In this document: positions 37,332 through 39,086 of the stretch, in pieces
Layout of the letters: the number at the start of each line of letters is the position of its first letter
Position numbering within the stretch: position 1 is the first letter of the stretch
The notes under the pieces: generated by a model
What the model saw: only the letters and a program-made list of their open reading frames with translations
Databases searched by the model: none
Told to the model about the DNA's origin: nothing
Assembly: GCA_014239775.1 (NCBI GenBank)
Contig: JAAZYG010000027.1
Span: 1-39,086, forward strand
Direction of reading: 5' to 3'
DNA: 39,086 nt
Origin: Candidatus Uhrbacteria bacterium
Lineage (GTDB): Bacteria; Patescibacteriota; Patescibacteriia; UBA9934; GWF2-40-263
Program-made: the position numbers and the translations under genes

Positions 37332-38660
37332 ATGAACCAACCTCAAAAAATAATATTAACAGCCTTAATATTATTAATATTGCCACAAACATCCTTTGCA
37401 AAACATAATGAATATATTCAAATAGAAATTCTAAATAATGATAAAAAAATAGATTTAAATATTGGAAATAAGGCTGGTGGTGTGAGTATAAATGCAGCTG
37501 ATCTTGGAAATGATGGCATACCGGAAATAATTGTTGGTAATGGACTAGGTTTTGAACCAAGAGTTAGAGTACTTCGACAAGATGGTACAGAAATTGGTTC
37601 ATTTCTTGCATACGCACCAAATGTGGGAATTGGTATTAATGTTATAACATGCGACATAACAGGAGATGGTTTTAATGAAATAATAGTTTCACCACAAAGA
37701 GGTGGTGGACCACATATAAGAATATTTAACAGATACGGAAAAGCAATCGATAACGGCGGATTCTTTGCTTATAATAAAAATTTTAAGGGTGGCGTAAATT
37801 TAGTATGCGGAAATTTAGATGATAGCAAACAGTCCGAACTGGTAACGTTACCTGGACCAGACGGAGGACCACATATAAAAGTATGGAACTTTTCTAATGG
37901 ACAAAGTAAGTTACTAAAACAATTTTTTGCATTTGATGCAAAAAATACAGTTGGGCTTGTCGGAACAATACATAAAAAAATCCTTCATGTATCTCAACAA
38001 AAAACATCTACACCTTTTATAAAATCTTTTTCAATTAATAGCCCTGTTACCTTGATCGATGAAAAAAGTTTGTCACTTCAAGTAGAAAGTGTTACTTCTA
38101 TATTTTTTGCAAATGATAAAAAGTACTTAACAACTTCATCATATGCAACAATGCATAATATTGATGATGGAATAAATGAAAAAATTAACAGTGTACATAA
38201 AAGTATAACCGGCACATCAGCAGACTTAAATAATGACGGTATTGAAGAGATTATTTTTACACCATCAAGAATTTTTACAAATGATAATCAAGAAAAAAAA
38301 ATTGAAGTGAATGTTTCAGAACAAAGATTATATGCATATAAAAATGGTTCATTAGAAAATACTTTTCTGATTTCAAGCGGATTAAATAACACAACACCTA
38401 TTGGAAAACATGATATATTAGCCAAATTAAAGGAGGTGCACTACAAATGGTTTTATGGTCCAAACGATCCAAGAAATTATGATCTTGGAATTATTCCATA
38501 TAATCTAAGAATTTATCCGCACATATATTTACACTACGCACCTTGGCACAATAATTTTGGACACAAGATGTCACATGGATGTATAAACGTCTCACTAGAA
38601 AATATGAAGTGGTTATACGCATGGTCATACGAAGGTATTCTAGTAGATGTGCATGAATAA
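37332..38660 (+). CDS. secreted FG-GAP/VCBS beta-propeller protein fused to a C-terminal L,D-transpeptidase (YkuD) domain
   Basis: Signal peptide; repeats 'DLGNDGIPEIIVGNGLG', 'DITGDGFNEIIVSPQRGGGPHIRIF', 'GPDGGPHIKVW', 'DLNNDGIEEIIFTPS'; 'KIEVNVSEQRLYAYKNGSL', 'TPIGKHDI', 'YLHYAPWHNNFGHKMSHGCINVS'. Confidence 0.92.
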   Translation: MNQPQKIILTALILLILPQTSFAKHNEYIQIEILNNDKKIDLNIGNKAGGVSINAADLGNDGIPEIIVGNGLGFEPRVRVLRQDGTEIGSFLAYAPNVGIGINVITCDITGDGFNEIIVSPQRGGGPHIRIFNRYGKAIDNGGFFAYNKNFKGGVNLVCGNLDDSKQSELVTLPGPDGGPHIKVWNFSNGQSKLLKQFFAFDAKNTVGLVGTIHKKILHVSQQKTSTPFIKSFSINSPVTLIDEKSLSLQVESVTSIFFANDKKYLTTSSYATMHNIDDGINEKINSVHKSITGTSADLNNDGIEEIIFTPSRIFTNDNQEKKIEVNVSEQRLYAYKNGSLENTFLISSGLNNTTPIGKHDILAKLKEVHYKWFYGPNDPRNYDLGIIPYNLRIYPHIYLHYAPWHNNFGHKMSHGCINVSLENMKWLYAWSYEGILVDVHE

Positions 38661-38683
38661 TCTTGTTTAGTAAAAAAAAATCT

Positions 38684-38712
38684 TTTACAATGTATATATC
38701 GTTTAGTACAAA
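38684..38712 (+). promoter_or_regulatory. putative promoter TTTACA-17 bp-TACAAA for the Lys/Ala-rich gene
   Basis: Moderate match with ideal spacing; implies a leader of about 114 nt. Confidence 0.35.
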
Positions 38713-38733
38713 GCGTCATGTGCTTACGAAACC

Positions 38734-38817
38734 ACTGCAACAAAAATTGCAGTACTCGATCGAGTATCTAAGTAAAGAAAATGAAACAGGGAGGATTTTT
38801 TGTAAACCAAGTTTCAT
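38734..38817 (+). promoter_or_regulatory. structured leader with three successive inverted repeats
   Basis: ACTGCAA/TTGCAGT (38734-38753), palindrome TACTCGATCGAGTA (38753-38766), ATGAAAC/GTTTCAT (38781-38817) with AGGGAGGA in the last loop. Confidence 0.5.
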
Positions 38818-38832
38818 ATAATTAATTTTAAT

Positions 38833-39086
38833 ATGCCCGCAAAGAAAAGAAAGCCGGCTAAGAAAAAACCTGCTGCTAAGAAAAAAGCAGCAAAGAAAAA
38901 GCCAGCAAAGAGGAAGGTAGCAAAGAGGAAGCCTGCTAAGCGTAAGCCAGCTAAGAAAAAAGCTGCTGCAAAGAGGAAGCCTGCTAAGCGTAAGCCAGCT
39001 AAGAAAAAAGCTGCTGCAAAGAGGAAGCCTGCTAAGCGTAAGCCAGCTAAGAAAAAAGCTGCTGCAAAGAGGAAGCCTGCTAAGCG
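38833..39086 (+). CDS. Lys/Ala/Pro-rich histone H1-like DNA-binding protein, truncated at the right edge
   Basis: ATG 38833, open to the edge: MPAKKRKPAKKKPAAKKKAAKKKPAKRKVAKRKPAKRKPAKKKAAAKRKPAKRKPAKKKAAA... Confidence 0.85.
   Translation, partial: MPAKKRKPAKKKPAAKKKAAKKKPAKRKVAKRKPAKRKPAKKKAAAKRKPAKRKPAKKKAAAKRKPAKRKPAKKKAAAKRKPAK
38923..39086 (+). repeat. exact 48-bp in-frame tandem repeat (3 full copies plus 20 nt)
   Basis: AAGAGGAAGCCTGCTAAGCGTAAGCCAGCTAAGAAAAAAGCTGCTGCA starts at 38923, 38971, 39019 and, partially, 39067. Confidence 0.95.

Follow-up and report, generated by a model that had tools for sequence, protein, structure and literature searches.

The stretch of DNA analysed here (the window; 39,086 nt) is the whole of contig C26 of a Candidatus Uhrbacteria genome and ends inside a tandem repeat. 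This raises the question of whether the repeat belongs to a real gene, what kind of product it would encode and how that product would be expressed. Uhrbacteria belong to the ultra-small CPR bacteria and have genomes of about 1 Mb; the assembly containing the window comprised 56 contigs (872 kb). A preliminary description had proposed an H1-like protein growing by exact 48-bp duplication. The features of the locus were as follows.

37332–38660, + strand: upstream neighbour with FG-GAP repeats and a YkuD L,D-transpeptidase domain, a conserved neighbour of the KAP gene
38663–38691, + strand: promoter-like site (TTGTTT at 38663–38668, 17-bp spacer, TACAAT at 38686–38691), assigned by consensus as read from the sequence
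38699–38729, + strand: predicted leader hairpin 1, outer stem TCGT/ACGA, inner stem GTAC/GTGC, loop AAAGCGTCAT, with GCGTC at 38713–38717
38734–38753, + strand: predicted leader hairpin 2, ACTGCAA...TTGCAGT
38753–38766, + strand: predicted leader hairpin 3, palindrome TACTCGATCGAGTA
38781–38817, + strand: predicted hairpin 4, ATGAAAC...GTTTCAT, with GGGAGG (38789–38794) in the loop region
38833–39086, + strand: 5' part of the KAP gene, 84 codons, open at the contig end and finished on contig C36 (L004:1–159)
38920–39086, + strand: exact 48-bp tandem array, 3.48 units in contig C26, each unit being 16 codons

The reading frame at 38833–39084 ran open up to the contig end and was rich in Lys, Arg, Ala and Pro (hence KAP). 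Its translation from 38833, MPAKKRKPAKKKPAAKKKAAKKKPAKRKVA(KRKPAKRKPAKKKAAA)n, agreed with the unit given in the preliminary description. Tandem Repeats Finder placed the array at 38920–39086 (period 48, 3.5 copies, 100% match, score 334), and the exact 48-periodic run made up the last 167 nt of the window, with units that were identical at synonymous positions as well, as had been claimed. The gene was also richer in GC (0.47) than the neighbouring gene (0.31) and the window (0.33), largely because of its Lys-AAG/Ala/Pro composition. If codons are drawn independently, the chance that all codons of two units are alike is approximately 1e-6 with the usage of the rest of the KAP gene and 5e-5 with the usage of the window; for three units the corresponding range is approximately 1e-12 to 2e-9. 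The units were thus identical far beyond an independent codon draw, which excludes composition and indicates that the copies arose by duplication. Codon identity therefore indicates that one 16-codon unit has expanded very recently in the window's genome, and similar events, with other unit lengths, recurred in relatives.

The other half of the gene was located on contig C36 (L004), which begins in the 48-bp array with 98 nt of exact period. The end of C26 and the start of C36 share 53 nt, in frame. On C36 the KAP gene closes with KSKVAKRKPAKRKPARRKKR and a stop codon, followed by a terminator. The next gene on C36 encodes a PHP-like protein (Pfam PHP_C match just under the cut-off), and in relatives its homologue lies directly downstream of the KAP gene in convergent orientation, which confirmed the order C26–C36. 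The joined gene measures at least 360 nt (119 aa, 4.4 units) with an exact array of 212 nt, and any extra unit would add 16 aa. Contig ends also cut the KAP gene in two other genomes (G067, C10/C18; G027, C14), and the earlier warning about unreliable assembly and a window ending in the repeat was well founded. On C36, 5S and 23S rRNA genes (L004:3439–6841) lie a short distance downstream of the KAP locus.

The named relatives carrying the KAP locus were Candidatus Uhrbacteria. In these relatives, the KAP gene sits between the YkuD/FG-GAP gene, usually at a distance of 110–420 nt from the KAP ORF, and the convergent PHP-like gene. A Lys/Arg/Ala/Pro-rich frame, usually starting with M(P/A)(A)KK, was present in every family member inspected. 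Its length ranged from 20 to 147 aa, and at five loci where it had first seemed absent, a very short form (20–25 aa) was recognized. Exact in-frame duplications were found of 48 bp (L131), 54 bp (L094), 57 bp (L139), 78 bp (L085), 117 bp (L129) and 123 bp (L109); as judged from these sequences, they show independent and recent events with other unit lengths. The length variation was observed between species, while the variation between cells that had been proposed earlier, and the tuning of nucleoid compaction ascribed to it, are putative. With the filter used, no KAP ORF was seen at Kerfeldbacteria and Falkowbacteria loci with a similar YkuD gene, and searches of plasmids with the KAP peptide and of the PDB gave no match. 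A match on contig C49 of the window's own genome was rejected, as it falls in the Ala/Lys-rich tail of another gene; this bS16-like ORF (L005:5316–5909) carries a long Ala/Glu/Lys-rich C-terminal tail.

The preliminary label H1-like held as a description of composition, but not as a profile assignment. The top Pfam match of KAP was PF07382 (HC2; 16.2–21.9 bits, gathering cut-off 40), and the top NCBIfam match, obtained for three family members, was NF038053 (hist_H1_lk_Burk; 16.1–21.1 bits, cut-off 80). Since these scores were far under the curated cut-offs, the resemblance to H1 is regarded as compositional. KAP is likely a polycation that binds nucleic acid, either DNA or RNA.

Beyond the other half of the gene and its conservation across Uhrbacteria, the present analysis adds a structured leader and a matching terminator. 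A TACAAT or TATAAT box preceded the leader at the same place in relatives, and on this promoter evidence the YkuD/FG-GAP gene is outside the predicted KAP transcription unit. The leader still preceded the KAP gene where the YkuD gene was not adjacent. In hairpin 1 the stem sequence differed among relatives and the loop CGCG(T/C)C was kept; the core of hairpin 2 in family leaders was CUGCA/UGCAG, and the family motif of hairpin 3, written as RNA, was GCUCGAUCGAGC. The hairpin 3 motif had one match in the window's own genome and occurred in 24 of the 43 family genomes, normally once and almost always before a KAP ORF. A leader pattern match in G029:C27 fell inside a coding gene and was dismissed as chance. 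Three loci (L095, L097 and L111) had the KAP ORF without the leader and the loop pairing described below, and L093 was without hairpin 1. In folding, the leader of the window had only a moderate advantage over shuffled sequences (z −1.9), and no relevant Rfam covariance model matched the leader region, either in the window or in relatives. A putative promoter of its own and a conserved three-hairpin leader for the KAP transcript are the new part of the analysis.

The KAP start in the window had no close Shine-Dalgarno sequence; GGGAGG lay approximately 40 nt upstream, in the loop of hairpin 4. A TATAAT sequence was noted approximately 10 nt before the KAP ATG, and a 14-codon ORF (ATGAAACAGGGAGG...TAA, 38781–38825) upstream of it. 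A close Shine-Dalgarno sequence was also missing in L013, L086 and L100, where GGAGGA was found further upstream. In L009, L010 and L019, the Shine-Dalgarno sequence was located between GTTCTGA and TCGGAAC beside the KAP start; these two segments could pair there, which would resemble sequestration of the ribosome site.

The loop of the KAP terminator, GACGCG, is the reverse complement of the hairpin 1 loop, CGCGUC. In a survey of 209 terminator-like hairpins from 24 sources, in both strand readings, loops of this type, G(A/G)CGCG, occurred almost only in KAP terminators; a second GACGCG-loop terminator shortly past the KAP terminator (L098:4360–4389) was the sole further one noted. Most genomes had the pair CGCGUC/GACGCG, while genera g6 and g15 had CGCGCC/GGCGCG and G007 had UGCGCC/GGCGCA. 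The window has AGCGUC/GACGCA, leaving 5 bp. The double change from U-A to C-G was placed in two separate clades on the YkuD tree. Counted on loop columns only, 98.6% of cells paired in the 6-bp loop helix, vs 94.9% when shuffled (0/500) and at most 62% when slid; the count was confined to these columns, without a covariance model, because the MAFFT alignment of the whole leader misplaced hairpin 2. With one genome per genus, complementarity was 150.3 with a genome's own terminator vs 127.8 (sd 4.7) with swapped ones (1/50,000 shuffles), in shuffles that retain relatedness between genera and with loop windows placed by motif, partly by hand. Genome-matched loops with compensatory changes suggest a 5'–3' kissing loop of the KAP mRNA, which is the simplest reading of the loop covariation. 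In other Uhrbacteria families (leaders such as L112–L121) no loop pairing was seen by eye and the terminator shape differed. Downstream of the KAP gene, the terminators of L112, L115 and L119–L121 have long stems that enclose an inner CCTGGAGG hairpin; their leader hairpin differs as well, which gives the same gene another architecture.

Alternative explanations were considered for the array, the loops and the product. The copy number could be an assembly product of a real gene with one or two units, since the contig breaks in the array, where short-read assemblers fail. In both contigs, however, two or more exact units follow one another in phase (167 nt in C26, 98 nt in C36), a short-read break requires an exact run beyond the assembler's resolving length, and the gene breaks the assemblies of two other genomes as well; we regard this explanation as very improbable. 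The matching loops might instead be DNA-level protein sites in opposite orientation, with no pairing of RNA, given that CGCGTC and GACGCG are one near-palindromic site on opposite strands. Their position in the apical loops of hairpins with varying stems, and the fact that the two loops of a genome change together, as seen in more than one clade, make this unlikely.

It is less likely still, although not as remote as an assembly product, that the main product is a structured regulatory RNA with a 5'–3' loop contact, its short ORF being either carried along as a variable passenger or used for translation-dependent control. The leader and terminator loops persist even where the ORF is down to 20–25 codons, and the leader matches no Rfam family, both of which would fit such an RNA; against it stand the Lys/Arg/Ala/Pro-rich frame in every member inspected, the in-frame duplications and the leaderless loci (L095, L097, L111) that keep the ORF. 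The alternative to which we give most weight, while still considering it rather doubtful, concerns the target: the polycation may bind rRNA, ribosomes or polyphosphate and not the chromosome. Small basic ribosomal proteins are similar in size to the Arg/Lys-rich forms of 20–40 aa, but the sequence singles out no ribosomal partner and the top profile matches are H1-like nucleoproteins. The precedent for a target of this kind is AlgP, an H1-like protein of Pseudomonas aeruginosa that associates with polyphosphate granules (PMC9239181).

The explanation we favour, and hold to be probable, joins these observations in a real, separately transcribed H1-like polycation gene with fast repeat-length change and a kissing loop between leader and terminator. 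KAP would be an intrinsically disordered polycation that most likely attaches to DNA (or RNA) through its charge and contributes to its compaction or coating. With no fold to keep, such a chain would tolerate in-frame tandem duplications and deletions, and its length may change fast through slippage or recombination. The gene would be expressed from a promoter of its own, and its transcript would begin with a structured leader. Pairing of the 5'-most hairpin with the transcription terminator, loop to loop, would join both mRNA ends and may act on mRNA stability or translation. Points that weigh against this explanation are the orthologues of just 20–25 aa, the purely compositional resemblance to H1, the 5-bp pairing and modest leader folding in the window, and the members that lack the leader, the loop pairing or hairpin 1. 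For the more specific claim, that a length-variable H1-like protein of this Uhrbacteria family has an mRNA whose 5'-terminal hairpin kisses its own terminator and so closes the molecule into a loop, we see an even balance of chances.

A fast-evolving H1-like gene conserved across Uhrbacteria is a candidate for a component of the nucleoid or one that binds RNA; it also breaks the assemblies of these bacteria. If the loop pairing is true, it would give a bacterial mRNA a conserved 5'–3' contact, open to in vitro tests without culturing of the organism. Loop closure would then perhaps protect both mRNA ends and allow the polycation to be expressed at a very high level, or to exert control itself. 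The RNA architecture is the part that merits an experiment.

Literature searches returned nothing relevant on H1-like proteins of CPR bacteria or on kissing terminators, and comparisons were drawn with the nearest described systems. Like Hc2 (HctB) of Chlamydia and BpH1 of Bordetella/Burkholderia, KAP is a Lys/Ala/Pro-rich low-complexity chain with basic repeats. The H1-like DNA-binding protein model from Burkholderia (NF038053), its best NCBIfam match, scored far below the cut-off. Hc2 of C. trachomatis varies from 165 to 237 aa through duplication and deletion of 36-aa elements (PMC2848022). KAP shares this in-frame change of length, in its case between species only, and differs in its 16-aa unit, in lengths down to 20 aa and in belonging to an unrelated phylum. 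Its leader and terminator loops are conserved; the consulted parts of the Hc2 paper contain no description of such loops (PMC2848022). AlgP has disordered Lys/Pro/Ala repeats (KPAA) whose number is rearranged among isolates (PMC9239181). KAP is likewise a Lys/Pro/Ala repeat chain with a changing number of repeats, but it has another unit, lacks the 124-aa N-terminal helical domain of AlgP and begins its repeats at the start codon. Because repeat-length change is known from Hc2 and AlgP, the central idea of the preliminary description amounts to known H1-like behaviour in a new lineage. At the RNA level, the closest parallel is the icaR mRNA of Staphylococcus aureus, in which the 5'UTR and 3'UTR base-pair through a 3'UTR motif and the Shine-Dalgarno region (PMC3868564). 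The KAP mRNA similarly has complementary 5' and 3' segments, which covary. In contrast to icaR, these segments are two hairpin loops, one of them that of the terminator, they lie away from the ribosome site, and their covariation extends across genera.
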